The notes under the pieces are model-generated. The model was given only the letters and a program-made list of their open reading frames with translations, was not told the DNA's origin and did no database searches. The position numbers and the translations under genes are program-made. Below, in pieces: positions 7,890 to 29,546 of a DNA stretch of 64,000 nt (its first letter is position 1; each line of letters begins with the position of its first letter). Source of the DNA: Geobacter sp. (GTDB taxonomy: Bacteria > Desulfobacterota > Desulfuromonadia > Geobacterales > Geobacteraceae); contig PJFC01000001.1 in the NCBI GenBank assembly GCA_003574885.1, positions 868,001 to 932,000 on the forward strand, written 5' to 3'.

Positions 7890-7891
7890 GG

Positions 7892-8980: not shown

Positions 8981-9016
8981 TCACCGATCCTATTTTACAG
9001 AGAAAGGGTAATATCA

Positions 9017-10678: not shown

Positions 10679-10739
10679 GGTCGCCTCGTCACCAGTGTAC
10701 TGGAGCAGACTGTCCCTTGTTACGGTTGTTTTACTTCCC

Positions 10740-11861: not shown

Positions 11862-11901
11862 GGCAAGTCCCCTTGGTGTGCTTTCCATATGAATCTCCGC
11901 G

Positions 11902-13167: not shown

Positions 13168-13210
13168 GTTATTTCTCCTTTCCAGTAAAGTGAGAGGTCA
13201 TTATGTATGC

Positions 13211-13309: not shown

Positions 13310-13506
13310 GGTGCCCTCCTTCAAGCGAAAAAAAGCCACGCAAAATCAGCGTTAAGTATACCTAAATTCAAAGCCTATTCAACTGAGCAAGGGTGCATTT
13401 CAACGCCGCCGCACCCGGCTGGGGAATGGCGGTGTTCAGCTGTATCTCCTACAGTTAACCTGGTAGCCATAGCTACTACTTTCAGGTGCATGGGGAGTTG
13501 GAAGAG
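13310..13506. other. intergenic, no supported gene
   Basis: About 200 bp between the polytopic protein and the mini-ORF. It contains a possible 38-codon frame (13375-13491, minus) with no ribosome site, which I do not accept, and no clear terminator. A promoter for the YfdX part of the run could lie here. Confidence 0.5.
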
Positions 13507-15191: not shown

Positions 15192-15201
15192 AAGGGCTTT
15201 C

Positions 15202-16335
15202 TCAACGCATGACCGTATCGGGGTCGATGGTAGCCGCCCGCCACGAGGGGATAATGGTGGTGACGGTGTAGGGAACGACGGTCAGGAAGAAAAGCGTTGC
15301 CACCTGGCCGAAGTCGATAAACGGGGTCAGGCGGAAGGTGGGATAGAGAGTCGACCATCCTTTGATTACCGGCGCGAACAGGGCGGCCGAGGTGAAAAAA
15401 ACATGGGCGTAGGCAAGAATGGTCCCCAGCAGGAAAGCGGTCAGCGAGATGATGCTCCCCTCCCAGAATTTCATCAGCATGATATCGGAGGTTTCCCAGC
15501 CGACAGCCTTGAGGATACCGATTTCCTTCTGTTCTTCGGCTGAAAGGCCGGTGGCCTTGTCCCAGGCAAAAATGACAAAGGCCAGGGCCACTGCAGCGAA
15601 GATGACGATCATCAGCCCGGAGCGCCAGCCGAAGAGCGCGTCATAGGTGCGCTGGATCTCGGTACGCACGATGGGGCGGCTGTCAGGATACATCCGGCTG
15701 ATCTTTTCGGCAATGGTGGCATACTCCCGTGGATTGCGCACCTGCAGAGCCAGATCGGTGGACTGGTCTTCCGGTATGCCGGAGAAGTCGCGGTAATCCT
15801 TTTCCGAGAGCAGTATCAGGTCGCTTGTCACCAGCTGCGATTCGCTGTCAAAGATGTTTCTGATGGTAAAACTGCGGGGTTGGCCGTCGTGCCCGGCAAA
15901 AGCAATGATGTCGCCTCGATTGGCGCCGCGCATCCTGGATATGCCGCTGCCGATGTCGATGCTGCCAGGTTCGGGCGGGTTCCCGGCCGGTACCATCATG
16001 GTGTAATTAGCCAGAAAATCCTTGTCGTACTTATAGCCCCATAAGCGTGGGTGTACCGAGATGACGCCGTTGATCTGACGAATCCTGTCGCTCCAGGCTA
16101 CGGGAATGGTTTGGTAGCGGCCGGTCATGGTGCGCTGGACGATGATTTCCGGTGCCTCGTTGAGCACCAGGGCCGCCTCATGCTTGAGGGCGTGGGTGAA
16201 AAAGAGTATGGATGCCAAGATAAAGACGAGCAGGGTGTAGACCGAGAGCAGTGCGCCGTTTTTTCCTTTGCGTCGCAAAAGCGCCGCGAGGGTGAAATCC
16301 ATGATATGCCGTTGTCGTTCAATCATCCTGGTCAT
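15202..16335 (-). CDS. FtsX/MacB-type ABC transporter permease
   Basis: This 377-residue permease has the MacB arrangement: one membrane segment near residues 25-45, a large periplasmic domain (about 46-240), then three segments in the C-terminal third ending in the family-typical PSWRAATIDPDTVMR. ATG 16335 overlaps the preceding stop as ATGA; later ATGs at 16326 and 16302 also lack ribosome sites, so coupling decides the start. Together with the next ATPase it forms a type VII ABC machine that could move lipoproteins or signal across the membrane. Its substrate is unknown; NosL upstream suggests metal. Confidence 0.88.
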   Translation of the reverse strand: MTRMIERQRHIMDFTLAALLRRKGKNGALLSVYTLLVFILASILFFTHALKHEAALVLNEAPEIIVQRTMTGRYQTIPVAWSDRIRQINGVISVHPRLWGYKYDKDFLANYTMMVPAGNPPEPGSIDIGSGISRMRGANRGDIIAFAGHDGQPRSFTIRNIFDSESQLVTSDLILLSEKDYRDFSGIPEDQSTDLALQVRNPREYATIAEKISRMYPDSRPIVRTEIQRTYDALFGWRSGLMIVIFAAVALAFVIFAWDKATGLSAEEQKEIGILKAVGWETSDIMLMKFWEGSIISLTAFLLGTILAYAHVFFTSAALFAPVIKGWSTLYPTFRLTPFIDFGQVATLFFLTVVPYTVTTIIPSWRAATIDPDTVMR

Positions 16336-16634
16336 GGTTTTTGTGCCAAGTGGGGTGGTGGCCCGACCAGCCCGCCGCTGGGGAAATGCTCCAGCGACAG
16401 GGGGGCATCCTGGAACGGGGTGGAGAGATCGGTCATGCTCAGGTGTCGGGTATAGGTGGCCTCGGTAAACAGGCAGAGGTCGGTCAGTTCCAGCTGTCTC
16501 ACGACTGCTGTCTTACGGGCAAACAGCGGCGCGGATGCCCGCACCTTGGCTTTTGCGTGCAACATCAGCCCTGTCAAAGACAGAACCAGTATGGCAGTCG
16601 TTCCCATATATATCGTTGAACGGCGGAACTCCAT
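16332..16634 (-). CDS. small exported or membrane-anchored protein of the NosL operon
   Basis: This 100-residue protein has an N-terminal hydrophobic segment (about 10-26) and no cysteine-based lipobox. Its mature region LCLFTEATYTRHLSMTDLSTPF is followed by a Pro-rich tail. Its ATG shares bases with the NosL stop (TGATG) and its own stop overlaps the permease start, so it is tightly built into the operon. No family is recognised. It may be the periplasmic partner of the exporter. Confidence 0.7.
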   Translation of the reverse strand: MEFRRSTIYMGTTAILVLSLTGLMLHAKAKVRASAPLFARKTAVVRQLELTDLCLFTEATYTRHLSMTDLSTPFQDAPLSLEHFPSGGLVGPPPHLAQKP

Positions 16635-17119
16635 CAATCAAGCGGTTTCAGGATTGCCGGGGTGACATCTCGAAAACGGATCCTTGATGTGCCATGGTGG
16701 TCTTTCATAAAATCACGCGCCTCCGTTTCTCTGACAAAGGGGATCAGTTCGCGTCCCATCGGGCCGTACACATCGCTGCCGATCACATAATAGGCTGTCA
16801 GCCCATTCACCAGGGAGAGATCGTAGTAATTGGTGACGAATACAGCAGCGACATCAGTCGTCTTCTTACCTGGTGCATAGCGGGACAGATTCAGGTAGAA
16901 CCTGAACATGTCCTTGGCTCCATCAAAATGAAAGGTAGCGCCGTCCCTGAACGTGATCTGTGCGGCAAAATCCGGATATTTTGCTACAAACATGCCGCAG
17001 ACCGGGCACTTGTCTTTTGGACCTGCCTTATGAGGTTTCAGGTCAGCTGCCAGGGCCAGGGAAAAACCAAAGAACAGAACAGTAAACATGATGCATATGT
17101 TGCGAAAAATTGCCTTCAT
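16634..17119 (-). CDS. nosL: NosL family copper-binding periplasmic protein
   Basis: This 161-residue exported protein has a signal peptide ending ALA and the NosL metal motif KCPVCGMFVAKYPDFAAQI at about 37-55. In NosL the CxxCGM cluster binds Cu(I). Downstream landmarks FHFDGAKDMFRFYL and YVIGSDVYGPMG also fit. Unlike nitrous oxide-reductase NosL it has no lipobox, and no nosZ/nosD is nearby, so it belongs to the NosL-with-ABC type rather than denitrification. The symbol marks family membership only. Confidence 0.85.
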   Translation of the reverse strand: MKAIFRNICIMFTVLFFGFSLALAADLKPHKAGPKDKCPVCGMFVAKYPDFAAQITFRDGATFHFDGAKDMFRFYLNLSRYAPGKKTTDVAAVFVTNYYDLSLVNGLTAYYVIGSDVYGPMGRELIPFVRETEARDFMKDHHGTSRIRFRDVTPAILKPLD

Positions 17120-17283
17120 TTGCGTTATCCATTCTGTTTGAGTGCTTTTTTCATCTTTCGGCGCTCACGAATCTGTTTCGTATCCCGGTACATGTCGTCG
17201 TAGCCGCCTTGATGGCGGTTTCGAATGATGCCGGCTAGCCGCCATTCTCCTAAACAATCCCGGCAAAAGCAAAAAGAAACATG
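17120..17283. other. short gap between TlpA-like gene and NosL
   Basis: A 22-codon minus-strand frame (17125-17193, starting MYRDTKQIRERR) lies just before NosL. Its only ribosome-site candidate, AAGG, is 13 nt from the ATG, so I list it as possible rather than supported. No terminator is seen, which is consistent with read-through from the TlpA-like gene into nosL. Confidence 0.4.
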
Positions 17284-17850
17284 CTAACGAGGATGATTTT
17301 TTTCATAGGATGCCTCCACCTGTTTCTGAATGTCAAATTGACGCTGTATCAGTTTTTCAAGCTTATCTTCCGGGATGTTCCCCAGAATTTTCTCCCGAAT
17401 GACCCCATTCCTGTCGAGAATAAAAATGGTCGGAAACCCAAATACACCATAGTGACCCGAGATCATTTTGTGTTCATCGGTCTGAAACGAAAAGGTCAAT
17501 GTATTGTTTTTTACGTACGACTCGACGGTCTCTTTAGTGTCTCCCACGTTTATCGCCAGAACAGCCAGACCTCTCTGCTTGTTCTCGCGGTAGAAAGGTT
17601 CGAGCAGTTTCAATCGGTCCCCGCAGCACGAATTGGTCCAGAAGTAGAGGACGACAACTTTACCCTTAAACTGGCTGAGGCTGACGAACTCGCCGGTTAT
17701 GTCCGTACCGGAGAATCCCGGTGGAGTATCGCCGATCTTTACCCCTTGCTTCGTGTCGCAGCCGACAGCAACAGACAGGGTTACGAGCACTAATATTACC
17801 CTTAAATAGATCATACGGAAAATCTTTGGACCTTTGAAAGGTAGTTTCAT
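17284..17850 (-). CDS. TlpA-like thioredoxin-fold lipoprotein with atypical CCGD site
   Basis: This 188-residue lipoprotein has lipobox SVAVGC with Cys at 31 and a TlpA/AhpC-like thioredoxin fold (GFSGTDITGEFVSLSQFKGKVVVLYFW, later cis-Pro GFPTIFILDRNG). Where TlpA proteins carry WCxxC, it reads WTNSCCGDRL: Cys75 aligns with the attacking cysteine, the resolving position is Asp78, and Cys76 adds a vicinal pair. A normal dithiol oxidoreductase cycle is therefore doubtful; metal binding or a monothiol role is possible. The ATG at 17850 has AGGA upstream. It is the likely first gene of the NosL group. Confidence 0.82.
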   Translation of the reverse strand: MKLPFKGPKIFRMIYLRVILVLVTLSVAVGCDTKQGVKIGDTPPGFSGTDITGEFVSLSQFKGKVVVLYFWTNSCCGDRLKLLEPFYRENKQRGLAVLAINVGDTKETVESYVKNNTLTFSFQTDEHKMISGHYGVFGFPTIFILDRNGVIREKILGNIPEDKLEKLIQRQFDIQKQVEASYEKNHPR

Positions 17851-17912
17851 TCACGTTCCTAACCAGATGCAATGCGCGTTGTGTTATGTCTGCCGGATTG
17901 TCAATGATGCAT

Positions 17913-17928
17913 TGTACATACGCACAAT
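17913..17928 (-). promoter_or_regulatory. putative operator upstream of the TlpA/NosL operon
   Basis: Minus-strand ATTGTGCGTATGTACA lies about 63 bp before the TlpA-like ATG and matches the NifX-operon motif at 8292-8307 in 13 of 16 positions. Its ends (TTGT...ACAA) form a dyad. Confidence 0.5.
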
Positions 17929-17944
17929 AGCCAGTGTGGAAATT

Positions 17945-18649
17945 TTATTCCTCACCCAGGTTATTTGTTTCGTCTGCGATCCGGCCATCACTGACGTGGA
18001 AAATCCGGTCGAATCCTTCCACCATGCGATGATCGTGGGTGACGACCAGGATGGCCGAGTTGTTCCCCACCGCCAACTTCTTTAAAAGGGCCATGACGTT
18101 TTTCCCATTAACGGTGTCCAAAGCGGCGGTCGGTTCATCGGCCAGGATCACCTTCGGCTTATTGGCCAAAGCCCGCGCAATGGCTACCCGCTGGGCTTCA
18201 CCTCCGGAAAGGGCCATGGGGTAGTTTGTTAGTCGATGGCCAAGATTAAGCGCGGCAAGGAGTTCCGTCGCCCGGTTTTTGGCTTCGTTCTTCGGCAGGT
18301 TGTTGATCTCCAGCGCAACCATGACGTTTTCCAGGGCTGTCAGAAAAGGGATCAGATTGTGGTGCTGGAAAATGAAGCCGAGCTTTTCCCGGCGAAGCCG
18401 TTTCAGATCAATACCAGGCAGCCATCCTTCATCGGCGACTGTCGTGCCGTCGATGACCACCTTGCCGTGGGTAGGCTCGTTAATCAGGCCGATAGAGGTA
18501 AGAAGGGTGGTCTTGCCTGACCCTGAAGGGCCGAGAATGGCGACGAGTTCGCCCGGCTTGACCTGAAAGGTGGCATCAGCGATGGCGGTTACCGCCGTCT
18601 CCCCCTTGCCATAAATTTTCGTCAGGTTTTCCACTTCGATCGCATGCAT
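17945..18649 (-). CDS. ABC exporter ATP-binding protein, DevA/MacB type
   Basis: This 234-residue ATPase has Walker A GPSGSGKTT, Q-loop FIFQHHN, signature LSGGEAQRVAIARAL, Walker B VILADEPTAALD and H-loop VVTHDHR. It belongs with the DevC-like permease and HlyD-type adaptor encoded upstream. Such DevBCA/MacAB systems export via TolC using a periplasmic adaptor. ATG 18649 lies four bases after the permease stop, with GGTGG before it; a GTG at 18661 is the alternative. It is the last gene of its operon. Confidence 0.92.
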   Translation of the reverse strand: MHAIEVENLTKIYGKGETAVTAIADATFQVKPGELVAILGPSGSGKTTLLTSIGLINEPTHGKVVIDGTTVADEGWLPGIDLKRLRREKLGFIFQHHNLIPFLTALENVMVALEINNLPKNEAKNRATELLAALNLGHRLTNYPMALSGGEAQRVAIARALANKPKVILADEPTAALDTVNGKNVMALLKKLAVGNNSAILVVTHDHRMVEGFDRIFHVSDGRIADETNNLGEE

Positions 18650-18653
18650 GGTT

Positions 18654-19856
18654 TTATCCACCCAGAGCCTCCGCCGGCTCGACCTTGAGCGCCTTTCTTA
18701 TCCCCACGAAGCTTGAGATCGTGCAGATGGCGATGACGATGACGAACAGCGCCTGCAGGTCGAAGGCTTCAAGAACGATCCGGCGTGGGAATTTATCGTA
18801 GGTGAGCTTGATGAGCAGATAGCCGATGCCGTAGGCGATGATTCCCATCAGGAGCGACTGCTGGAGGATCATGCCGATGATCACCCGGTTCTGCGAGCCG
18901 ATCAGCTTCAGGGTGGCGATCACCTTGATCTTGTCGATGGTCGAGGTGTAGATGATGAGCGAAATGATGACTGCCGAGATCACCAGGAGAATGATCCGGA
19001 AGAGCCCCAGTTGCATCCGCGCCTTTTCGATCATCCCTTTGGTGAGGATCTTCGTCTGCTCTTCCACCGAGAGTGGTCGGAAATGGTTCCAGCGGCTGAT
19101 CCGTTCCTGCACCTCATGGAGGTTCGCTCCCGGCGCCAGCCGTGCTACAACGGTGTTCACCGTGTGGGTCGATTCCGTGATGCCGGTGATGTTCTGTTGC
19201 AGGAATTTAGTCTGGGCCGGCGACAGGGTCTGAATGCCGGCCAGATTCGCACCGATCCGCTCCCGGTCGTTCCGGATGGCGTCGTTGTCTTTCTTGAACT
19301 GAATGTCCTGGGCATCGGCAAGGCTCACATAGGCAGCCGGGTCGCCGCCTGACGAGACCACCTTGCCGGTGATCCCCACCACTGTGTAGTCGTGAAGTCC
19401 CAGGTGGATCTTCTCGCCGACCTCCATCTTCATCGCCTTTGCGACTACCATTTCATAGTGTTTCTGGCGGATGTCCCGTCCGGCAATGATACCGGGCGGG
19501 CCGCCGAAACCGTTCAGATCATAACCGATAAGGAAAAAGCGGAAAGGCTTCCCCAGCCGCTCTATCTGGATGGTCTGGAAGGACAGGGGGGATGCCTCCT
19601 CCACGCCGGGTACCGCCCTGATACGGTATTTGATGTCCTCCGGGATGCGTGAGTTCTCGGCAAAGGGGCCGTTGGTATCCTGCTGAACCACCCAAATGTC
19701 GGCCTTGGTGAAGTTGAGCACCGCCAGGGCATCGGCAAAGAGCCCCCGGTAGATGCCACCCATGCTTATCACGACTCCGAGCAGGAGCCCCAGCCCGATG
19801 GAGGTCAGGATGAACCTGCCCCGGTTATAGCGTATGTCCCGAATGGCGAGATTCAT
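18654..19856 (-). CDS. ABC exporter permease, DevC/FtsX type
   Basis: This 400-residue permease has a membrane segment at about 15-38, a large periplasmic domain, and three C-terminal segments with VIATLKLIGSQNRVIIGMI, typical of MacB/DevC permeases. It ends IRKALKVEPAEALGG, the family C-terminal box. ATG 19856 overlaps the adaptor stop (ATGA). It works with the ATPase downstream, the adaptor and the TolC protein upstream as a tripartite exporter. The exported compound is unknown; the surrounding arsenic and thiol genes suggest, but do not prove, a metal or stress link. Confidence 0.9.
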   Translation of the reverse strand: MNLAIRDIRYNRGRFILTSIGLGLLLGVVISMGGIYRGLFADALAVLNFTKADIWVVQQDTNGPFAENSRIPEDIKYRIRAVPGVEEASPLSFQTIQIERLGKPFRFFLIGYDLNGFGGPPGIIAGRDIRQKHYEMVVAKAMKMEVGEKIHLGLHDYTVVGITGKVVSSGGDPAAYVSLADAQDIQFKKDNDAIRNDRERIGANLAGIQTLSPAQTKFLQQNITGITESTHTVNTVVARLAPGANLHEVQERISRWNHFRPLSVEEQTKILTKGMIEKARMQLGLFRIILLVISAVIISLIIYTSTIDKIKVIATLKLIGSQNRVIIGMILQQSLLMGIIAYGIGYLLIKLTYDKFPRRIVLEAFDLQALFVIVIAICTISSFVGIRKALKVEPAEALGG

Positions 19857-21025
19857 TTTGCGGTCCGCACCTTCATGCCGTCTTTGAATTTTGCCATCTC
19901 AAGTGGTGGCGCCAGCGCAATCCGTTCCCGCCCGTCAAGGCCGCTAACGATTTCCGTGAGGTTGCGGCGATCCACGATGCCAACAGTTACCGGCTTGAAA
20001 GCAAGCTTACCATCTGCCACGACCCATACGCCGCTCTTTTTCTCCTTCGGGACAATGGCGGCAGAGGGTAGTGCCAGGGCATCCTTCTTCATCTCGGTAA
20101 CGATGTAGACATCGGACTGCTCCCCCAGACGGAAATTCTTGAGTAGGGGGGTAAAGGCCACGTCCACCTCAAGCTCTTCGGTGACCCGGTCACTCTCACG
20201 GCCCAGGCGGGCCACCTGGCCAGGGAACGATTCAGTGGGTGCCGAACGAAGGGCGATCAGGGCCTTCTTGCCGATTGCTACCCCTTTCATCAGGGATTCG
20301 TCCACATTGGCCTTGACCCAGACGGTCCGTGGATCCGCCATGGTGAAGATCGATACCCCCGGCGTAACCGTGGCTCCCTTTTCCAGGTCCCGCGTGATGA
20401 TTATCCCCTCTTGAGGGGCATAGATGAGCGTATCCGCGACCTTGCTCCGGGCAAAACCGAGGCCGGCACGATTGGCCCGTTGTTCCATTCGCACAGCGTC
20501 AATCTCCGCCTGACAGCGTGCAACCTCTTCCCTTGCAACCTGGCAGGTGGTGTCATACTGTTCGGCCTCCAGTTTGGAGACAAAGTTTTTAGCGGCAAGG
20601 GCCTTGAAACGCTGGACATTATTTTCGGCCAGAGCCAGGTTCGCCTTGGCTTTCTGGAGATTGGCCTGTTCAACACTCAAGTTGGCCGCGGATCGTCTCA
20701 GTCCCGCTTCGGACTGTCGTTCCTGCTGGAGAAAGTCGTCGTTTTCCAGCCTGGCAAGGAGTTGCCCCCGTTTCACATGGTCTCCCTGGTCTACAAACAG
20801 TTCCACGATCCTGCCGGTGATCTTGCTGGAGACACCGACCACAACCTTGGCCTCAACCGTACCGTTGCCGTACACCTGGGAGGTCAGGTCGTGCTTCTCA
20901 ACTTTTACGATCTTGACCGTTGGCGGCGCGAAGAGCGTCATCTTGAGTACGACGCCACTGGCCACGAGAACCAAAGACCAGATCAGATACTTTTTCTTTC
21001 TTGCCAATGTTTTCAGCAAATCCAT
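19853..21025 (-). CDS. HlyD/DevB-type periplasmic adaptor
   Basis: This 390-residue membrane-fusion protein has an N-terminal anchor at about 13-32, then a lipoyl half (YGNGTVEAKVVVGVSSKITGRI with LFVDQGDHVKRGQLLARLE), a long coiled-coil hairpin at about 95-190, the second lipoyl half (YAPQEGIIITRDLEKGATV) and a beta-barrel region. AAGGAG precedes the ATG. It bridges the DevC-like permease to TolC across the periplasm. The group of four genes is contiguous and co-oriented. Confidence 0.9.
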   Translation of the reverse strand: MDLLKTLARKKKYLIWSLVLVASGVVLKMTLFAPPTVKIVKVEKHDLTSQVYGNGTVEAKVVVGVSSKITGRIVELFVDQGDHVKRGQLLARLENDDFLQQERQSEAGLRRSAANLSVEQANLQKAKANLALAENNVQRFKALAAKNFVSKLEAEQYDTTCQVAREEVARCQAEIDAVRMEQRANRAGLGFARSKVADTLIYAPQEGIIITRDLEKGATVTPGVSIFTMADPRTVWVKANVDESLMKGVAIGKKALIALRSAPTESFPGQVARLGRESDRVTEELEVDVAFTPLLKNFRLGEQSDVYIVTEMKKDALALPSAAIVPKEKKSGVWVVADGKLAFKPVTVGIVDRRNLTEIVSGLDGRERIALAPPLEMAKFKDGMKVRTAK

Positions 21026-21052
21026 TAATGGCTCCTTCGCGGTTGCTTCTCA

Positions 21053-22378
21053 CTATTTCCCAACTGCCCGGTCAAGCCGGGCAAGGGCCGTGTAATAATC
21101 GTACATGGCCTGTATTTGCGCCGTTTGCGCATCAAGGGCCTGGGATTGGGCATCGGTCACTTCAATGATGCTGCCGACCCCTTCGTGATAACGACCTTCC
21201 GCCAGCGCCCGGCTTTCATTGGATGCCGCAACTTCTTTCTCGGTTGATACCATGCGGGCTGATGCCTCGTTTCCACCAAGCCAGGCGGATTCGACCTCTT
21301 TGATGATCTGCAGTTTGAGATTATTGTTTCGCGCCTCAATGGCGCTGATGTTTGCGTTTGCTTCGCGTACCTGCTCAACCGAGGAAAATCCGGAAAAAAG
21401 CGGAATCGTTAGATCGAGGCCCACTCCCCAGACATTACCAGTGGGAGGGAAGTCCCGATCGGCATAGCCGATGCTTGCCGTACCCGAAAGTATGGGCAGA
21501 TAGCTGCTCCTGGCAGATTTCAGGTTGGCATTCGCGGCCATTTTGAGGGCTGCCAATTGCTGCAACTCGGCACGGTAGCGCACGGCATCCTGTTGAGCCT
21601 GGCTCCGTGACGGCAACGGCGGCAAACTTGGAGACGGGTCAGTCAGGGAGCGCTCTCCCAGGGAAGCTATGCCCATGGAACTGGCAAGCTCGACCCGTGC
21701 GATCTCCCGGTTGTTTTCCGCCCGGATCAGGGCGGTCTTGGCCGCAAACAGGTTCGCTTCGGCCCTGGCCACGTCCACCTTCGCCCGGATCCCCTGATTG
21801 AAGAACTCACGCGCCTGCAAGAATACCCCTTCCCGTGCCGTGACGGTTTCCCTGACGGCAATAACCTGTTTTTCAGCTGCCAGCAGGAGATAGAAGGCGC
21901 TTTTGACACGCAGCGTCAAATCCTGCCGCGTTATGGTGAGAACCTGGTCTGCGGCATCACGATTGCTGCGGGCGGCATCGACTGCCCCGGCGGTGCGGCC
22001 GAAATCGTAGATGGTTTGCTTCAGGTACAGGGCATCAGTATTCACTTCTGTCGTTTTGATGTTCTCCAGCGGCGTGAGAAAAGAGCGTCCCTTGCTCCAG
22101 TCGGCGGCAATGCTGATCTGGGGATAGTAGTTTGTCAACGCCTGGCCGGTTCTCGCTTCAGCGCCGTGCAGGTTTTCCTTGGCCTCGACCAACTGGGGAT
22201 GGCTCTTCAGGGCTGTTGTCAGCGCCTCATCAAGGCTAAGCGGTTCTGCGGCGTATGCTCTGCCGGTCAAAAGGCTCGTAACCAATAGCAGTACCGTTAT
22301 GGCTTCGGCACTACGCCGATTTCCGTTTTTGCTCGATTGCGTGCGACACGCTACCGATTCTGCATTACCGATGGGCAT
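21053..22378 (-). CDS. TolC family outer membrane channel protein
   Basis: This 441-residue exported protein has the TolC repeat: LSLDEALTTALKSHPQLVEAKENL starts repeat 1, and a second similar helical-hairpin half begins near AVRYRAELQQLAALK. Signal peptide core is at about 26-42. A trimer would form a beta barrel in the outer membrane with a periplasmic helical tunnel. It lies 27 bp before the adaptor gene and is the dedicated exit duct of that exporter. Start at 22378 (AAAGGAA upstream) gives a rather long n-region; a shorter start is possible. Confidence 0.9.
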   Translation of the reverse strand: MPIGNAESVACRTQSSKNGNRRSAEAITVLLLVTSLLTGRAYAAEPLSLDEALTTALKSHPQLVEAKENLHGAEARTGQALTNYYPQISIAADWSKGRSFLTPLENIKTTEVNTDALYLKQTIYDFGRTAGAVDAARSNRDAADQVLTITRQDLTLRVKSAFYLLLAAEKQVIAVRETVTAREGVFLQAREFFNQGIRAKVDVARAEANLFAAKTALIRAENNREIARVELASSMGIASLGERSLTDPSPSLPPLPSRSQAQQDAVRYRAELQQLAALKMAANANLKSARSSYLPILSGTASIGYADRDFPPTGNVWGVGLDLTIPLFSGFSSVEQVREANANISAIEARNNNLKLQIIKEVESAWLGGNEASARMVSTEKEVAASNESRALAEGRYHEGVGSIIEVTDAQSQALDAQTAQIQAMYDYYTALARLDRAVGK

Positions 22379-22501
22379 CCGGGCTGTATTCCTTTCGACA
22401 TGGCGTTCTCAATGTTTCCGGTGTTGGGGTAGAGTGTAAACCCTGTCCTGGTAGTCCAGTACGAGGGCTGAAAATGAAGAAAGCATCTTGAGCATGGCGA
22501 T

Positions 22502-23185
22502 TTAAGCCATCCATAAGAGATACGCCCCCACAAGAGCGACGACCAGTCCGCCGATCCGTTTCGTCCAGGCGGAGAAGTTGACGATCCCTCTGGCCTTGAC
22601 GAACGACTCGATGAAACCGGTGAAGGTGCCGGCCGCCAGCATCAGCAGGCAGTGGCCGATGGCGTAGGTGAACAGCAGGGCCGTACCGTAGAGCACCTCC
22701 CCTCTGGTCGCCACGTAGGTGAGGATTACCACCAGAACCGGCGTGGCGCAGGGAGAGGAGACAATGCCGAAAAACAGGCCGAGGATGAACGAGCCGACTA
22801 TCCCTCCCTGTTTCGGCTTGAAATCACGCTTTATCGGCAGGCGGATCTCGTAGAGCCCCATCATCTGCCCACCCATTACCAGCGCCACAATGCCGGCCGC
22901 TACGTACCACCAGCCACCGACGGTGCCAAACATGGTCCCCATCAACCCCGCCGCAGTGCCGAAGGCGGTGAAGGTAAGGGAGAGACCGAGGATAAAGGCC
23001 AGGGAGTAGCGAAACGCCTTCCAGCGGTCTCCTTCGGCATAGCCGCCGACAAAGCCGACCACCAGCGGGATGGTGGCAAGCACGCAGGGGGAAGCAGAGG
23101 AGACAACGCCGGCCAGGAAGACCGCGCCGAACGCCAGGACCGGGTAGGCGGCGACGATCTGCTCGATGTTGTCGAGGAACGTCAC
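22502..23185 (-). CDS. CcdA/DsbD-type thiol-electron membrane transporter
   Basis: This 227-residue protein has six membrane segments and the two CcdA cysteines: SSASPCVLATIPL near residue 33 and VSSPCATPVLVVIL near 145. These carry electrons from cytoplasmic thioredoxin to periplasmic partners. The start is GTG at 23185, overlapping the stop of the thioredoxin gene as GTGA. The next gene upstream encodes an exported thioredoxin, its obvious partner. Together they could keep a periplasmic metal-binding or cytochrome protein reduced. Confidence 0.9.
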   Translation of the reverse strand: MTFLDNIEQIVAAYPVLAFGAVFLAGVVSSASPCVLATIPLVVGFVGGYAEGDRWKAFRYSLAFILGLSLTFTAFGTAAGLMGTMFGTVGGWWYVAAGIVALVMGGQMMGLYEIRLPIKRDFKPKQGGIVGSFILGLFFGIVSSPCATPVLVVILTYVATRGEVLYGTALLFTYAIGHCLLMLAAGTFTGFIESFVKARGIVNFSAWTKRIGGLVVALVGAYLLWMA

Positions 23186-23565
23186 TTAATCCCCAGTGTC
23201 TTCAGTTCCCTGACGATTTCAGACTTCTCCGCGAAGCCGATGTGGCGCTTGACCTCTTTCCCCCTGGCGTCGAAGAATATCTGGGTCGGGATCATCTGGA
23301 CCCGGAACTTTTCCGCTGCTGCCCGATTTTCATGGACGTCGATGAACAGCACGCTGGCTTTGCCGCGATACTCGCCGGACAGAGATTCCAGGATCGGCGC
23401 CATCTTCTTGCAGGGGATGCAGGTGCGCGCCCCCAGATCGATAACGGTCGGCTTGCCGGAAGAGAGGGCCTGTTTGACAATCGCATCGGTGGCGGACGGA
23501 AGTTCGGCGCATGCTACCCCGGCAAGCATAAGGAGAAGGGAAAGAACTGCTATGCAGCGTTTCAT
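23182..23565 (-). CDS. exported thioredoxin-fold protein
   Basis: This 127-residue protein has a signal peptide (about 1-20, ending ACA) and one thioredoxin domain with active site ARTCIPCKKMAP and cis-proline motif MIPTQIFFDARG. The CIPC pair is redox-competent in principle. GAAAGGAA precedes ATG 23565. It overlaps ccdA-like translation start, making a two-component periplasmic reductant system in the style of DsbD split into domains. Confidence 0.9.
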   Translation of the reverse strand: MKRCIAVLSLLLMLAGVACAELPSATDAIVKQALSSGKPTVIDLGARTCIPCKKMAPILESLSGEYRGKASVLFIDVHENRAAAEKFRVQMIPTQIFFDARGKEVKRHIGFAEKSEIVRELKTLGIK

Positions 23566-23610
23566 GGATGTTCCTTTCGTCGGCTTAGAGTGGATTGTGC
23601 CGGTGCAGCT

Positions 23611-23838
23611 CTACAGCATCCCCATGATTTCTCCGACCGATGCGACCTTGCCGGAAAACTTTACCTGCCCGTCGATGACCAGTGCCGGCGTGCTCATGAC
23701 GCCGTATCTCATGATGGTAGGGATGTCCTCCACCTTCACCACTTCGCCGGTCTTGCCGCTCTCTTCCAGGGCCTTCTTTGTGTTCTCATAGAGTGTCTTG
23801 CATTTGGCACAGCCGGTGCCGAGAATTTCGATTTTCAT
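23611..23838 (-). CDS. small cytoplasmic thioredoxin (TM0996/MTH895 type)
   Basis: This 75-residue protein has the opening MKIEILGTGCAKCKTLYENTKKAL, i.e. a CxxC at 10-13, and the later MSTPALVIDGQVKFSGKV. It is the compact thioredoxin family often annotated redox-active disulfide protein 2. These are usually encoded beside ArsP/UPF0718 permeases, as here. ATG 23838 has GGAG upstream; longer frames lack a site. It may deliver electrons or bind the metal handled by the permease. Confidence 0.9.
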   Translation of the reverse strand: MKIEILGTGCAKCKTLYENTKKALEESGKTGEVVKVEDIPTIMRYGVMSTPALVIDGQVKFSGKVASVGEIMGML

Positions 23839-23915
23839 TGATACTCGCTCCTGTTCGTAGGTTGTGGTGATGGCCCCGCCCCGGCTCGCCGGCGGGACCG
23901 CCCAGTGTCCAGTTC

Positions 23916-24377
23916 TTACCGTCTCCACCCGGCCCATGCAGGGTAGCCGTTTTCGTCTCTCAGCTTCAGCACGGCATCCCCCTTTTTTACCTCGTCCGCT
24001 ATAATGGCCGGTTTGCCGTTGTAGGTGATCCGTGATCCCTTAACCATTACGGTATCTCCCTTGTTGATCTTCGTGTCGAGCCGCTCGACGTACCAGGCCG
24101 GACCCAGATGGACCGGAATCGTTTCCTTGTCGGTCTTGAGCATAACGTGAATGCCATAGCTCATCCCCTTCGTCGGCGTGATCCTGTCGATGCTTACCAC
24201 CTCACCGGAGATGGTCTCAACCGTTGCCGCATTGTACATCCGCTGGTAGGCGCCACCTGTACCCCAACCGCCACTGCCGCGCCACCCTCGCCACGGACCG
24301 GCAAACGCAGTTGCCGCGAGAGCTGCCACCAGAAAAATCGCCAGGAATGCTGTAAAACTTCTCGTACGTGGTTTCAT
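23916..24377 (-). CDS. exported OB-fold-like protein with GPxWY motif
   Basis: This 153-residue protein has a signal peptide (core 10-25, cleavage after AFA) and a Gly/Trp-rich linker. A small beta domain follows: VETISGEVVSIDRITP, then IPVHLGPAWYVERLD and INKGDTVMVKGSRITYNGKPAI, ending in PAWAGWRR. The pattern is that of periplasmic OB-like domains (MamS/MamX-related) found with metal-resistance and haem genes; the common database label DNA-binding protein would be misleading for a secreted protein. GGAGG precedes the ATG. Confidence 0.65.
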   Translation of the reverse strand: MKPRTRSFTAFLAIFLVAALAATAFAGPWRGWRGSGGWGTGGAYQRMYNAATVETISGEVVSIDRITPTKGMSYGIHVMLKTDKETIPVHLGPAWYVERLDTKINKGDTVMVKGSRITYNGKPAIIADEVKKGDAVLKLRDENGYPAWAGWRR

Positions 24378-24441
24378 GACTGCCTCCTTTTTGGGTTATG
24401 AGCCGGTAATAGCAACAAACTGTGTCACGTGCAGCAGACCT

Positions 24442-25389
24442 TTACAGAATCGCATTAAACAGATAGCCGACGATGATAATTGCGCCGGCCACCGTACCGA
24501 AAAAGACCGCCAGCAGACGGTTCTTCAGCACATTTTTGAGGATGATCGCCTCGGGCAACGACAGGGCGGTAACCGCCATCATGAAGGCCAGGGTGGTGCC
24601 GATGGGGAGCCCCTTCTCCATCAGGGCGTGGACGATGGGAATCACGCCGGCAGCGTTGGAGTAGAGCGGCACCCCGATGAGGACCGCCAGCGGCACGGCG
24701 AAGGGATTGTCCCTCCCGGCATACCTGACCAGGAAGTCCTGCGGTGCATAGCCGTGGATAAAACCGCCGATGCCAACCCCGACCACCACGTAGGGCCAGA
24801 TCTTCTTCAGCAGCCCGGTCGTATACTCACGGGCGTAGTCGAGTTTCTGACGGAAGCTCATCACCGGGATCTCGCCATTTCCAACCTGCATCTCCCAGAC
24901 GTAGTCCTGGACGTATTTCTCCATCTTCAGCCTGCCGATGACGATACCCGCGACAATGGCCACCAGCAGTCCCGTGGCGATGTAGATAAGGGCTATCCGC
25001 CAGCCGAAGAGCCCCCAAAGCATGATCAGCGCTACTTCGTTGACCATGGGGGAGGAGACGAGAAATGAGAAGGTGACCCCGAGCGGTACCCCCGACTCCA
25101 CAAAACCGATAAACAGCGGCACTGCCGAGCAGGAGCAAAAGGGGGTAACGATGCCGAGCAGCGCTGCCAGGACGTTCCCCACGTAAAGCCGCTTGTGGGA
25201 GAGGATGCGCTTGGTCTTCTCGGGTGGGAAAGAGGAGCGGATGACCGCCACCACAAAGATGATGACGGTGAGGAGGAAGAATATCTTGATGGTGTCGTAG
25301 ATGAAGAAATTAAGAGCTTCGCCCAAATGGGTTCCGGGGGTGAGGCCCATGAGGGTGAACACGATGTAGTCGGCGAGGCTTTTCAGCAT
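24442..25389 (-). CDS. ArsP/UPF0718 family permease
   Basis: This 315-residue polytopic permease has the family motif TPFCSCSAVPLFIGFVESGVP at about 85-105, followed by SSPMVNEVAL in a second conserved turn. ArsP members export trivalent organoarsenicals; related SO0444-type members export copper or zinc. The CSCS cysteines are the expected metal ligands. ATG 25389 has GGAG six bases upstream and is preferred over the ATG at 25401. It is flanked by ArsR and a small thioredoxin, the standard context. The symbol arsP is plausible but substrate is not shown. Confidence 0.85.
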   Translation of the reverse strand: MLKSLADYIVFTLMGLTPGTHLGEALNFFIYDTIKIFFLLTVIIFVVAVIRSSFPPEKTKRILSHKRLYVGNVLAALLGIVTPFCSCSAVPLFIGFVESGVPLGVTFSFLVSSPMVNEVALIMLWGLFGWRIALIYIATGLLVAIVAGIVIGRLKMEKYVQDYVWEMQVGNGEIPVMSFRQKLDYAREYTTGLLKKIWPYVVVGVGIGGFIHGYAPQDFLVRYAGRDNPFAVPLAVLIGVPLYSNAAGVIPIVHALMEKGLPIGTTLAFMMAVTALSLPEAIILKNVLKNRLLAVFFGTVAGAIIIVGYLFNAIL

Positions 25390-25440
25390 GGAATGCTCCA
25401 TGAGCGTCTGATTGATTACTCACTTAATGAGACAAAAAAA

Positions 25441-25551
25441 TTATTCTTCGTAAAGCTCGATCGCTTTGCAGGCGGCTTTGCGGATAAGCTCTTCGGGGAG
25501 TTTTGTTTCGGTGAAAGCGACGGTAACCCCTTTATCAGCCAGATTTTTCAT
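25441..25551 (-). CDS. candidate 36-residue protein between ArsR and ArsP-type genes
   Basis: AAGGAGACGAAAC precedes an ATG at 25551 opening a 36-codon frame. The peptide begins MKNLADKGVTVAFTETK and ends RKAACKAIELYEE, with one cysteine and strand-helix character. It lies 24 bp after ArsR and 51 bp before the permease, in the same operon. The sequence reads like a fragment or a compact version of a larger soluble protein, but the ribosome site is excellent, so I expect it to be translated. Confidence 0.6.
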   Translation of the reverse strand: MKNLADKGVTVAFTETKLPEELIRKAACKAIELYEE

Positions 25552-25575
25552 GTTTCGTCTCCTTCAACTTTCGCG

Positions 25576-25890
25576 TTACACAGCCTTCATCAGTTCGTGC
25601 CGTTCGGAAATTTCCTGTTTCACAATCAAGGTAACAATGTCCACAATTTTCAGGACTTCAGGATGTTTAATGGCGTAAAAGATTTTAAGACCTTCCTTGC
25701 GGCGTGAAAGAACACCGGATGCCAGCATCATGTTCAGGTGGCGGGAGGTGTTGGACTGCTCTTCGTCAATGGCGGGAAATATCTCGCAGACGCATCGCTC
25801 CCCATCACGAAGAAAATCAATGATCTTCAGGCGGGTTGGCTGGGCCAGGGCCTTCAAAATATCGGCACGGAAATCAATCAAGCTTTTCAT
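25576..25890 (-). CDS. ArsR/SmtB family metalloregulator (permease operon)
   Basis: This 104-residue winged-helix repressor has the metal-sensing motif GERCVCEIFPA in the alpha-3 region, equivalent to ELCVCDL of ArsR, and recognition helix QSNTSRHLNMMLASGVLS. In ArsR proteins the CxC pair binds As(III) or Sb(III) and releases DNA. The gene heads the operon with the 36-residue protein, the permease and the thiol genes, and an inverted repeat overlaps its promoter, implying autoregulation. Confidence 0.92.
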   Translation of the reverse strand: MKSLIDFRADILKALAQPTRLKIIDFLRDGERCVCEIFPAIDEEQSNTSRHLNMMLASGVLSRRKEGLKIFYAIKHPEVLKIVDIVTLIVKQEISERHELMKAV

Positions 25891-25907
25891 AAGTGTCCCC
25901 CCAACTG

Positions 25908-25950
25908 CATGACTATATAATCATGTAGTTGATACTCCATGGTTTGTCAA
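25908..25950 (-). promoter_or_regulatory. arsR promoter overlapped by an inverted-repeat operator
   Basis: Minus-strand TTGACA (25950-25945) and TACATG (25927-25922) are 17 bp apart. A dyad CATGA-N8-TCATG (25908-25925) covers the -10 and start region, well placed for repression by ArsR. Confidence 0.6.
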
Positions 25951-26021
25951 ACAATTTCTATTCGAGCATTTTGCCGTCTGAGCGGGCGGGCTTGGCGCCT
26001 TTTCGCAAGCAGGCACTTCCC

Positions 26022-27302
26022 TTACTTATCGCTGATGCCAGGTTGTCGTCGCTCAACCTTTCTCATCACCACCGCCATCACTGCCGCAATGACAACGATC
26101 CCCCCCAGCAGTCCGGCAGAGATGAGCGGGTTGTTGAGCAGTGATGGATTGACCAGAAGCACCAGGCCGAGACCGAGCATCATCAGTCCCGACACCAGTT
26201 TCAATATCCGCCCCTGCCATTCGGTGAGTTTTCTGCTGCCGAGGGTCACGGTGAATACCCCGACGATGACCGCCAGTGGAATGATGTAAACTCCATTGTA
26301 GAAGGCCAGGTAGAGGTAGTACATCGAGGTGGAAAGATGCTGCAGGGTCAGCATTCTCGTGAAGACCATGGGGAAACCAGCGGTGCAGAGAAGCTCGTAG
26401 CTGTTGGCTGCCAGAGCCAGAACCGCCGTGCCAGTCACCATCGCGAAGAGCGAGTCGGCCCTGAGGAGATTTCTCATGCGGGCAAAGAGCTTCGGCTTTT
26501 GTCCTTCAGGGATCACCAGTGAGATCCCCTGCTCGAAATAGAAAAAATCCTTGATGTTGATACCCGCAACCACGAGGGCGATGATTCCCGCCGCCATGGT
26601 GACCGCCGGCAGCGTGCCGGTGAGCAGGAACAGGTTCAGCCAGGCTGCCATGAAAACGAAGTAGACAACTCCCGAGAAAATAACGAATACGCCGCCGATG
26701 AGGAGCATGCGGGAGCGCGAATGGGCATGAATGAGGAGACTCAGGAGGAAGAAAAGAACGAAGAAGGCGCAGGGATTGAAGCTGTCCAGGCCGGCGATGA
26801 CCAGGGTGAAAACCGGCAGGGAAACGCTGGAGGTATCAACCCTCCCGATGAGTGGGATCGTAAGGGTATCTGCGTCGGCACGTGGGTGACCGGGAGGGGT
26901 GGCGGCAACCCCTTCCAGGGCGGATTTGACGTGCTGTTCGAGCTCGACGGCGATCTCCGGCGAAAAGCCGCTCATCATCCGGTTTCCAATGATGAAGGTC
27001 GGAACGCCGGTTGCCTCCTGGTTGCAGGTCTTTGCCATCGCCATGAGGCGGGAGATGTTCTCCTGGTGTTTCAGCACCTCGTATGATTCTATCCTCAGTG
27101 CCGGGTATTTTCGCTGCAGCTCTTCAAGGAACGGCTTTGCGCGCGCGCAGTGTGGACACCCTTCGCCCCAGAAGAAGTACAGGGTTATCCCCGGGGAGTT
27201 GCCCGCTTTGCCCGCAACCGCTCCTGGCCCGGCAAGAAGAACCAGGGAGATGAAGAGTGAGGTCAGTACCCTGCAAATAGCGTGCTTCATGCGGGCCACC
27301 AT
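26022..27302 (-). CDS. thioredoxin-CcdA fusion, exported thiol reductase
   Basis: This 426-residue protein joins an exported thioredoxin/glutaredoxin-like domain (YFFWGEGCPHCARAKPFLEEL near 45-62, GVPTFIIGNRMMSG) to a C-terminal CcdA-like membrane domain. The membrane half has about seven segments with NPCAFFVLFFLLSLLIH near 180 and a second Cys in SYELLCTAGFP. The build is that of a compact DsbD able to move electrons from cytoplasm to its own periplasmic CPHC site. The start is 27302 (GAGG 8 nt upstream) or 27290. It lies between two arsenic gene groups, so a link to metalloid thiol chemistry is likely. Confidence 0.85.
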   Translation of the reverse strand: MVARMKHAICRVLTSLFISLVLLAGPGAVAGKAGNSPGITLYFFWGEGCPHCARAKPFLEELQRKYPALRIESYEVLKHQENISRLMAMAKTCNQEATGVPTFIIGNRMMSGFSPEIAVELEQHVKSALEGVAATPPGHPRADADTLTIPLIGRVDTSSVSLPVFTLVIAGLDSFNPCAFFVLFFLLSLLIHAHSRSRMLLIGGVFVIFSGVVYFVFMAAWLNLFLLTGTLPAVTMAAGIIALVVAGINIKDFFYFEQGISLVIPEGQKPKLFARMRNLLRADSLFAMVTGTAVLALAANSYELLCTAGFPMVFTRMLTLQHLSTSMYYLYLAFYNGVYIIPLAVIVGVFTVTLGSRKLTEWQGRILKLVSGLMMLGLGLVLLVNPSLLNNPLISAGLLGGIVVIAAVMAVVMRKVERRQPGISDK

Positions 27303-27414
27303 GCATCCAGCCTCGGGGGTGCTTCACTGGTACCGTCGTTACTTCGATTCGCGCTGTCTTCCGGCCAGCTTCTCCTTGATATGGGCGATGAACGCCTCCT
27401 CATCGGGAATGTTA

Positions 27415-27438
27415 GAATGAATATATCGCTATTCACTC
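27415..27438. promoter_or_regulatory. putative ArsR-type operator downstream of acr3
   Basis: GAATGAATA-TATCGC-TATTCACTC is a 9-bp inverted repeat with one mismatch, in the 170-bp gap before the thioredoxin-CcdA fusion, and of the AT-rich SmtB/ArsR style. Confidence 0.5.
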
Positions 27439-27473
27439 ATATTGCCAGCATGATAATTGCTCAGCACCTATCA

Positions 27474-28535
27474 TCAGCTTGTCCCTCCGACCGGTGCGAA
27501 GTGTTTGCGCTGAAACCATAAGGCCACGTTCACCAGTCCGATCATCACCGGCACTTCCACCAGAGGCCCGATGACAGCGGCAAAAGCCGCTCCCGAGTTC
27601 AGACCGAACACCGCCACCGCCACGGCGATTGCCAATTCAAAATTATTGCTGGCCGCAGTGAATGCCAGAGTCGTGGTCTTGGAGTAGTCGGTCCCCAGTT
27701 TCTTCCCCATCCAAAAGGATACCAGGAACATGACGATGAAGTAGATCAGCATCGGGATGGCGATCCGCACCACGTCCATTGGTAACTGGACAATTAACTG
27801 TCCCTTCAGGCTGAACATGACCACGATGGTAAACAGCAGGGCTATCAGCGTGATAGGCGCGATCTTCGGCACAAACTCCCGGTGGTACCGTTCCTTGCCC
27901 ATGACCTTCACGCCAATCAGCCGGGTCAAAGCCCCGGCGATACAGGGGATTCCCAGATAGATAAAGACGCTCTCGGCGATCTGTTTGATGCTGACGTCGA
28001 CCACGACCCCTTTCAGCCCGATCAGCGGCGGCAGCACGGTGATGAAGAACCAGGCGTAGACGCTGTAGAAAAGAACCTGGAAGATACTGTTGAAAGCCAC
28101 CAACCCAGCAGCGTACTCTGTACTTCCTTTGGCCAGTTCATTCCAGACCATGACCATGGCGATGCAGCGGGCCAGCCCGATCATGATCAGGCCGACCATG
28201 TACTCCGGCTTTTCAGGCAGGAACACCACGGCCAGGAAGAACATCAGCACCGGCCCGATCAGCCAGTTCTGAGCCAGTGACAGACCGAGCACCTTCTTGT
28301 TGTGGAAGACCTCCGGCATCTCTTCGTATTTCACTTTGGCAAATGGCGGGTACATCATCAAAATCAGGCCGACGGCGATGGGGACGTTGGTGGTCCCGAC
28401 CTGGAAGCTGTTGACGAAGGATTTCACTCCGGGGACAAAATAGCCGAGTCCCACGCCAAGAGCCATCGCGGCAAAGATCCAGAGGGTCAGCCAGCGGTCG
28501 AGAAAGGACAGCTTGCGTGAGACATGCTCGCTCAT
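27474..28535 (-). CDS. acr3: Acr3 family arsenite efflux transporter
   Basis: This 353-residue permease has ten membrane segments and the Acr3 signature [20 protein letters not shown] near residue 120, whose cysteine is essential in characterised Acr3 proteins, and a second conserved segment [23 protein letters not shown]. It expels As(III) using the proton gradient. ATG 28535 overlaps the arsC stop as ATGA, following GGAGGGG. ArsC and Acr3 thus form a reduce-and-export pair. Confidence 0.95.
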
Positions 28536-28954
28536 GGTTCCACCCCTCCTATCAAATAGTCAGTCAGTATTCGGCGGATCTCATCCCTTACCCTTCTGAA
28601 CTCGGGCAAAACCTCTTCAGGGGAGCCAAGAAGCTGGGACGGGTCGTCGAAGCCGATATGCACACGCTGTACTCCTCCGAAGAAGATCGGGCACTGTTCA
28701 TTGGCCGATCCGCAGAGGGTTATGACGTAATCAAACCGTTGGTCCGCAAACTGGTCGAAGGTCTTGGAATGGTGGTGGGAGATATCGATTCCCAGTTCTG
28801 CCAGCACGCGAATTGCCAGCGGATTGACCCGGGTGGCTTCGGTGCCGGCGGAAAAGGCCGCAAATCTATCCCCCAAGTCGTGGTTGACCAGCCCTTCTGC
28901 CATCTGGGACCGGCAGGAGTTGTGGGTGCAAAGGAAAAGAACTTTTTTCTTCAT
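28532..28954 (-). CDS. arsC: arsenate reductase, thioredoxin-coupled LMW-phosphatase type
   Basis: This 140-residue protein has the P-loop [14 protein letters not shown], giving Cys9-x5-Arg15, and two further cysteines in [11 protein letters not shown] that complete the disulfide relay of Staphylococcus-type ArsC. It also has the late [10 protein letters not shown] acid loop. It reduces arsenate to arsenite using thioredoxin, several of which are encoded nearby. It lies 71 bp after arsR with a perfect dyad in between and overlaps acr3. Confidence 0.95.
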
Positions 28955-28967
28955 ATCAATTCTTTCT

Positions 28968-28989
28968 TTAATCCGGATTTATGGATTAA
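28968..28989. promoter_or_regulatory. putative second ArsR operator before arsC
   Basis: TTAATCC-N8-GGATTAA is a perfect 7-bp inverted repeat in the arsR-arsC gap. It shares the ATCC/GGAT half-site with the arsR promoter site at 29379-29394. Confidence 0.55.
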
Positions 28990-29024
28990 TTCGCATAAAA
29001 ATTTTTGCCCTCACCTCACCTCCA

Positions 29025-29366
29025 TTATGCACAGACATTCCCGCGACTCAATCCGCGGAGCCGCTCGATGTCGGACTTTGTCACCGCTGCATCCCGAAGG
29101 AAATGGCGCAGGATGGGGAGAAGCGACTGCTGGAGCGGGCCAGGCTGTTTGACAATGGAGTAATAGATCCATACCCCTTCCCGGCGGACACGGAGCCATC
29201 CCGCATTTCTGAGATGGGAAAGGTGCCGCGAAACGGTGGACTGGGGGAGCTGCAGGGCAGCCATCAGGTCGCAGACACAGAGCTCCTCTTCTTCCAGAAG
29301 CAGTGCCAGCACGCGGAGACGGGTTTCGTCTTCGAGGGATTGAAATGTTGAAGCGATAGTTTCCAT
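29025..29366 (-). CDS. arsR: ArsR family arsenical repressor
   Basis: This 113-residue winged-helix protein has the exact ArsR sensing motif EEELCVCDLMAAL and recognition helix PQSTVSRHLSHLRNAGWL. It should repress the arsC-acr3 unit and itself and release DNA on As(III). ATG 29366 lies 7 bp after a -10 box, with no ribosome site, so the message is probably leaderless; a longer ATG at 29417 would start upstream of the promoter. The C-terminus (LRGLSRGNVCA) carries an extra cysteine. Confidence 0.93.
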   Translation of the reverse strand: METIASTFQSLEDETRLRVLALLLEEEELCVCDLMAALQLPQSTVSRHLSHLRNAGWLRVRREGVWIYYSIVKQPGPLQQSLLPILRHFLRDAAVTKSDIERLRGLSRGNVCA

Positions 29367-29373
29367 GTTTTTG

Positions 29374-29402
29374 AATATATCCGTTAATGCGGATTGAGTA
29401 AA
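29374..29402 (-). promoter_or_regulatory. arsR-arsC-acr3 promoter with internal operator
   Basis: Minus-strand TTTACT (29402-29397) and TATATT (29379-29374) are 17 bp apart. The dyad ATCCG-N6-CGGAT (29379-29394) fills the spacer. Confidence 0.65.
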
Positions 29403-29546
29403 GAGGTTTTTGTGCATTTAGGGCTTTTGTCAATTCTGTCAGCAGAATGCAAAAGTAAGCCTGCTGAATTCAGTGGTATTGGTGTGGACGGTGGCGCCTG
29501 GCTGGTGTAGAATTGCCGCTGCTATCACGACTCTGTTGAGAGGTGC

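Follow-up and report, generated by a model that had tools for sequence, protein, structure and literature searches.

A permease-thioredoxin-CcdA module joined to a MacAB-like tripartite pump: a candidate two-membrane export line in a Geobacter arsenic locus

Accounts of arsenic efflux in two-membrane bacteria usually stop at the periplasm, and exit from there is generally left to porins. The ars operons covered in the part of PMC4435449 consulted here contain 5 ABC transporters among more than 700 transporters, and the same part divides the ArsP permeases into two clusters; ArsEFG is cited in PMC9144182, from which we likewise draw on a part. Here we describe a 64,000-nucleotide stretch of Geobacter sp. 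DNA (assembly GCA_003574885.1, contig PJFC01000001.1, positions 868,001 to 932,000; genome size 3.47 Mb), below called the window, in which an arsP-type permease gene and a set of thiol-redox genes run on into a TolC-containing ABC pump. On balance, we favor the reading that these genes form an export line over both membranes, controlled by the second of two ArsR repressors (ArsR2) and serving soft, thiol-binding metalloid, possibly also metal, species. Comparison of gene neighborhoods gives good support to the predicted coupling of the permease-redox genes with a trans-envelope pump, and the recurrence of the arrangement in relatives suggests a working export route rather than chance neighbors.

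The initial annotation of the window listed two ArsR repressors, ArsC, Acr3, an ArsP-type permease, redox genes and an exporter lying head to tail on one strand. All of the named genes are present in this arrangement, from 17945 to 29417 of the minus strand, as confirmed by their reading frames and by Pfam and NCBIfam models:

29025 to 29417, minus: arsR1, ArsR/SmtB repressor with a CVC motif (HTH_5); the start is possibly 29366
28532 to 28954, minus: arsC, thioredoxin-type arsenate reductase, pI258-like, under the equivalog cut-off
27474 to 28535, minus: acr3, arsenite efflux permease (TIGR00832)
26022 to 27302, minus: glutaredoxin-like domain (CPHC) with a CcdA-like membrane part read from motifs
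25909 to 25924, minus: predicted palindromic ArsR2 operator ATGATTATATAGTCAT, with TTGACA at 25945-25950
25576 to 25890, minus: arsR2, ArsR/SmtB repressor with a CVC motif
24442 to 25401, minus: arsP-type permease, PF03773, with a TPF-CSC motif
23916 to 24377, minus: small protein between arsP and trx3 that reads as exported, absent from the initial list
23611 to 23937, minus: trx3, small thioredoxin of the ArsE/MTH895 family, CAKC (TIGR00412); the start is probably further in
23182 to 23565, minus: trx, thioredoxin, CIPC, with an N-terminal signal-like stretch, read as periplasmic
22502 to 23185, minus: ccdA, membrane electron carrier of the DsbD_TM/CcdA type
22379 to 22501, minus: gap between ccdA and tolC, with no TetR gene and no TetR operator
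21053 to 22378, minus: tolC, outer-membrane efflux channel (OEP/TolC)
19853 to 21025, minus: MacA/HlyD-like adaptor
18654 to 19856, minus: MacB-like permease (MacB_PCD and FtsX)
17945 to 18661, minus: ABC ATPase, LolD/DevA-like, below the cut-offs of 25 listed families

The gene set consists of three modules: (a) arsR1-arsC-acr3, (b) arsR2-arsP-orf-trx3-trx-ccdA, and (c) tolC with a MacAB-like ABC pump. Their linkage was counted in 141 genomes of the order to which Geobacter belongs, with distances taken from start to start, low-identity paralogues and small pieces left out, and chance expectations assuming uniform placement in a 3-4 Mb genome. Where arsP and ccdA are both present, they lie within 6.5 kb of each other in 69 of 73 genomes, which exceeds chance; acr3 and arsP are equally close in 38 of 82. 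The glutaredoxin (Grx)-CcdA-like gene is close to arsP in 2 of 29 genomes, the window genome and its congener G009 only. Because the same-genus genomes G007, G008 and G009 match the window Acr3 at only 34-35%, the window acr3 looks exchanged.

Module c is accessory and often stands alone under a TetR repressor. Its close homologues, distant paralogues being left out, occur in 64 of the 141 genomes, commonly in the order TetR-tolC-adaptor-permease-ATPase. Pump permease and ccdA occur together in 53 genomes. They are at most 6.5 kb apart in 10 of these (0.17 expected) and at most 20 kb apart in 5 further ones, and in 10/10 of the close cases the pump is downstream of ccdA on the same strand. This proximity exceeds chance, as a minority arrangement.

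Joining goes along with the absence of the pump's own repressor. A pump was called joined if the 5 kb upstream of its permease gene contained a module b gene with 55% identity or more, so that L056, L058, L060 and L061, in which ccdA lies further upstream, count as unjoined, and five loci with too little upstream DNA were not assigned a state. Of the 57 loci of known state, 47 are unjoined, and 32 of these have a TetR gene. Nine of the 10 joined loci, the window included, lack TetR, versus 15 of the 47 unjoined loci (Fisher p 0.001; p 0.003 with 16/47 if L086, the TetR of which lies beyond 5 kb, is taken as TetR-less). The TetR operator, with a consensus near TATGTGAATATATATTCACATA, was modeled from sites ahead of tetR only, with a seed chosen after viewing sites ahead of tetR and tolC; on random 360-base stretches, the model scores a median of -7.9, with 95% and 99% values of 3.6 and 29.3. 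Ahead of the pump, the score is at least 13 in 30 of the 31 scored unjoined loci with TetR and 7.6 in the other one, and it is at most -1.4 in 9/9 joined TetR-less loci, with -5.7 in the window. No promoter- or terminator-like site is listed on the minus strand of the window's ccdA-tolC gap. Two of the pump loci are irregular: the adaptor gene of L086 (G125) is split by about 4.6 kb, and in L045 (G032) the matches to the pump genes are broken into several pieces, which has the look of frame-shifts or misassembly.

In a quickly built tree of 62 pump sets, from which L055 was left out for its short permease gene, the joined state takes at least ten changes, and repeated joining or loss is therefore likely, the forks being weak (10 of the 59 inner branches are open). 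The count is soft because it equals the number of joined rows and comes from a quick tree with open forks.

The slot after ccdA was surveyed at 73 distinct ccdA loci for which 3 kb or more of downstream DNA was available, counting pumps that start within 800 bases on the same strand. It holds a tripartite pump at 14 of the 73, seven of the ABC type of the window and seven of the resistance-nodulation-division (RND) type, a proportion that is enriched, since loci near a pump were deliberately looked for and about 30 further ccdA places were left out. In congener G009 the slot is taken by the RND version, and one of the seven ABC-type loci has a TetR gene between ccdA and the pump. The RND permease of L061 falls under the heavy-metal and multidrug cut-offs alike. 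Similar orders occur in other lineages. By tblastn, a deltaproteobacterial metagenome-assembled genome (L134) carries ArsR-ArsP-Trx3-Trx-CcdA-Acr3-TolC-pump on one strand. A member of the Terriglobia (Acidobacteriota; L180) has ArsR-Acr3-ArsC-ArsP-ArsR (tblastn and reading), a DGC gene, OsmC, ArsF, ArsG and adaptor-permease-ATPase, again on one strand, with both ArsF (110.3 bits, cut-off 60) and ArsG over their cut-offs. Plasmid pSCD of Sulfuricella combines a permease, an arsenite methyltransferase and TolC-MFP-RND-thioredoxin-CcdA. Plasmids of Citrobacter (L190) and Comamonas (L191) hold a distant pump relative (41.7% identity in Comamonas) within about 20 kb of ars genes, with a cytochrome c gene between the ATPase and outer-membrane genes.

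Ahead of arsR2, TTGACA is followed by a spacer and the palindrome ATGATTATATAGTCAT, which recurs with at most four mismatches in 18 of 20 arsR2 upstream regions. A scan of the window genome gave one place with at most one mismatch, that ahead of arsR2, and one more with two mismatches; a reversed control pattern also gave one match. In 1.33 Mb of loci, the ArsR2 box scores at least 28 at 19 sites, 17 of which are the training sites ahead of arsR2; of the other two, one precedes arsP in L057 and one a detached pump operon in L062 (G091), and no such score occurs elsewhere in these loci. In L062, the box and a TTGACA of its own precede a CDF-like gene (orf214) and then the pump genes, away from the arsR2 cluster. 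No other single observation hints as strongly as this site at possible control of the pump by ArsR2. The ArsR2 and TetR operators have the frame TATRTGA-N8-TCAYATA in common.

The initial annotation described the whole region as one eleven-kilobase island; a single co-regulated unit of that size is not supported. One 11-kb metalloid operon was rejected in view of the two ArsR genes and of acr3 and the Grx-CcdA gene, which travel separately (compare the acr3 linkage above), and a single island-wide unit is unlikely because arsR2 has a predicted promoter-operator of its own. The annotation's further proposal, that export is coupled to thiol redox, fared better: comparison supports the exporter and the thiol-redox genes as partners of the permease, given the recurrent downstream position, the TetR loss, the ArsR2 box on the detached pump and the RND pump in the slot.

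Several observations weigh against the export-line reading. No pump-ccdA link within 6.5 kb exists in 43 of the 53 genomes with both, no such pump occupies the slot at 59 of the 73 ccdA loci, and 3 of the 14 occupied slot loci are without arsP within 9 kb. One joined locus, L032, has retained both TetR and the TetR operator (score 18.4). No TetR-operator score above 7.2 occurs at the 15 unjoined TetR-less loci, so that operator loss accompanies TetR loss generally and not joining specifically, and the ArsR2 box precedes the pump in only 1 of these 15. An independent-pairs test of linkage against TetR loss on the pump tree, run with L086 counted as TetR-less, was not significant (median p 0.5). 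A search for cysteines gained by the pump upon joining showed no clear pattern, adaptor C161 being present in 7 of 10 joined and 19 of 47 unjoined loci.

The family assignments of the individual proteins are of uneven strength. Both ArsR proteins match HTH_5 and exceed the metalloregulator cut-off, and ArsR2, with its CVC motif and a conserved palindrome at its own putative promoter, has the features of an ArsR-type As(III) repressor. Acr3 is assigned to the arsenite permeases by TIGR00832 (453.6 bits, cut-off 282.8), and ArsC is nearest to the pI258 thioredoxin type at 139.7 bits, below the cut-off of 174.3. The arsP-type permease combines the PF03773 domain (280 bits, cut-off 32) with the C(S/T)C motif, both features of ArsP, the methylarsenite permease, and its only NCBIfam matches, SaoE (136/325) and the SO_0444 Cu/Zn exporter (114.8/300), are both below cut-off. 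Trx3 belongs to the ArsE family (TIGR00412, 105.9 bits, cut-off 62). CcdA is not an ArsG by the equivalog model (38.1/200), and the thioredoxin at 23182-23565 gave no ArsF match at E 0.001. Three of the four redox proteins that had been announced, trx3, trx and ccdA, are borne out by models; the fourth, at 26022-27302, reaches 22.6 bits with the glutaredoxin model, marginally below the cut-off of 22.9, and its CcdA-like half is a putative one, read from NPC/ELLC motifs with no model match. The small protein at 23916-24377 is faintly MamS-like (19.9 bits, cut-off 200).

The exporter had been called DevBCA-TolC. TolC and an ABC pump are indeed there, and the Dev label was rejected: DevA (222/296), DevB (57/129) and DevC (45/290) all stay below the curated NCBIfam cut-offs. 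Because every one of these is missed, the exporter is better named MacAB-like. It has the make-up of the MacAB-TolC type, with MacB_PCD and FtsX, an HlyD adaptor and an adjacent TolC channel, and misses the curated equivalogs (MacA 118.7/342; ATPase to MacB 193/966).

The cysteine motifs are invariant among the homologues compared: the CVC motif in arsR1 (12/12) and ArsR2 (22/22), CSC in ArsP (26/26), CxxC in Trx3 (33/33) and Trx (28/28), and C34 and C146 in CcdA (27/27). In L068 (G121, 1-19001), the CcdA-Trx-Trx3 unit is repeated at about 6.95-kb spacing together with a P-type ATPase-like gene and an IS200-like transposase; four ccdA copies are present, one in two pieces.

Combining these findings with what is known of the protein families, from which the presumed transcript, inducer, direction of electron flow and substrate are taken, we propose the following model. 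An inducer would bind the CVC pair of ArsR2 and release the repressor from its single operator, turning on arsP, the thioredoxins and ccdA, and, via read-through, the tolC-MacAB-like pump. The permease would move the toxicant from the cytosol to the periplasm. CcdA would pass electrons from a cytosolic to the periplasmic thioredoxin, so that the species or the transporter thiols are kept reduced, and the MacAB-TolC pump would carry the toxicant from the periplasm to the outside. Arsenate and arsenite would be dealt with separately by the upstream arsR1-arsC-acr3 unit. A stronger version, which we put forward tentatively, is that of a dedicated two-stage, two-membrane arsenical route consisting of the permease, a CcdA-fed periplasmic thioredoxin and an interchangeable MacB or RND pump behind one ArsR, in which the pump would have moved repeatedly from TetR to ArsR control, perhaps aided by operators of the same frame.

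Methylated arsenicals, suggested as the substrate in the initial annotation, find no direct support. With 18 of 22 candidates scored, the window genome gave no arsM match at E 1e-30. Four of the 141 genomes have an arsM of at least 60% identity, and in two of them (G061 and G120) it lies within 3 kb of ccdA; any match at all is found in 35, mostly at 36-48% identity. Methylarsenite produced by neighbors is a possible substrate.

A serious alternative, if an unlikely one, is that the line serves soft heavy metals such as copper, cadmium, zinc and lead, and not arsenicals. This would fit the permease, for which the NCBIfam matches are limited to SaoE and the Cu/Zn exporter, both far below cut-off, the CDF-like genes within several homologous clusters (the one tested passes Pfam Cation_efflux), and the trx-ccdA trio of G121 repeated next to a P-type ATPase-like gene. 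The repressor argues otherwise, since the cysteines of ArsR2 are the CVC pair only. CadC has extra N-terminal cysteines, which ArsR2 lacks. Arsenic genes also keep company with the module, acr3 as counted above, and ArsD/ArsA-like, ArsF/ArsG or arsM genes in some homologous clusters. In the part of PMC10092412 drawn on here, Nitratiruptor has a permease-thioredoxin-arsC set, and an SO_0444 permease with TolC, that are induced by Cd and Cu, which again speaks for metals.

A more doubtful reading makes the pump a multidrug or lipid exporter in its own right, brought into a resistance hot spot by chance. The 47 of 57 loci that are unjoined, 32 with TetR, would be expected in that case, as would the scatter of joined copies over the pump tree (fewest changes 10) and the Citrobacter and Comamonas plasmids, with a distant pump relative within about 20 kb of ars genes and, in Comamonas, its own TetR. 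Chance landing does not account well for a downstream, same-strand position in 10/10 of the close cases, the absence of TetR and operator in 9 of the 10 joined loci, the ArsR2 box ahead of the detached pump in L062, an RND pump in the same slot, or the recurrence of the arrangement in another phylum. Very improbable, finally, is the role that was proposed in 2010 for redox trios of ars operons, namely that they supply ArsC with electrons for reducing arsenate: the window arsC is nearest to the thioredoxin type, but it belongs to the arsR1 unit and lies outside the arsR2 unit, at several trio loci an arsC match is lacking, and ArsC is a cytosolic enzyme whereas CcdA and a thioredoxin with a signal would be expected on the periplasmic side, a doubt that the 2010 authors voice themselves in the part of their report consulted.

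Beyond the ABC ATPase, minus-strand genes run on as far as 13507:

17284 to 17850, minus: TlpA/ResA-like protein with SCCGD in place of CxxC, a possible continuation of the unit
13507 to 17119, minus: NosL, a 101-amino-acid (aa) protein, FtsX permease, LolD-like ATPase and a membrane protein with SCCG

The membrane protein at 13507-14508 has the motifs SCCG and HHCPFC, and NosL, the 101-aa protein and the FtsX/LolD-like pair lie between it and the TlpA-like gene; only the best 21 of about 100 places were taken for this protein, and its linkage figures were not used. TlpA homologues with SCCG adjoin the pump in several other genomes, and the order TlpA-NosL-101aa-FtsX after the pump is also found in L053, up to the end of that contig. 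Further upstream, between acr3 and the Grx-CcdA-like gene (about 27340-27442), lies a 20-base element common to the relatives L064 and L067, followed by sequence that reads as the tail of a ferredoxin-like gene that these relatives have before arsR2; the stretch is apparently a relic. A 36-residue open frame (25441-25551, minus strand) lies between arsR2 and arsP.

A recurrent gene line in which one predicted ArsR operator precedes an inner-membrane permease, a reductant of the periplasm and a trans-envelope pump makes the step from the periplasm to the outside testable. It also offers a role for the CcdA and thioredoxin genes that were described from ars operons in 2010, and it suggests a repressor swap that can be traced across genomes. 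In the literature searched, as far as its accessible parts go, no report of the coupling to a MacB-type pump or of the TetR-to-ArsR change was found.

Among described systems, the 2010 redox trio has the same redox genes beside arsenic genes; in the part of that report consulted, no pump spanning the outer membrane is described and the proposed role is arsenate reduction, whereas the window has a pump. The TPF-CSC motif of the window permease fits cluster 2 of ArsP in PMC4435449, and the substrate of its subgroup is a putative one. The Nitratiruptor SO_0444 permease, as presented in the consulted part of PMC10092412, is co-induced with TolC, as is predicted for the window permease, and has as neighbors the gene of a winged-helix regulator and a gene that is likely to encode an RND pump; it differs in having RND instead of ABC, a cytochrome c gene and Cd/Cu induction. 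MacAB-TolC shares with the window TolC, an HlyD/MacA-like adaptor and a MacB_PCD-FtsX permease; the window ATPase, however, is a separate protein, and the curated MacA and MacB scores are far below cut-off. ArsEFG (TIGR00412, NF040494, NF040495) likewise combines an ArsE-family small thioredoxin, an exported thioredoxin-like protein and a CcdA-like membrane protein, but the window CcdA reaches 38 bits where ArsG demands 200, and its thioredoxin has no ArsF match; L180 has a true ArsF-ArsG pair ahead of the same kind of pump as that of the window.

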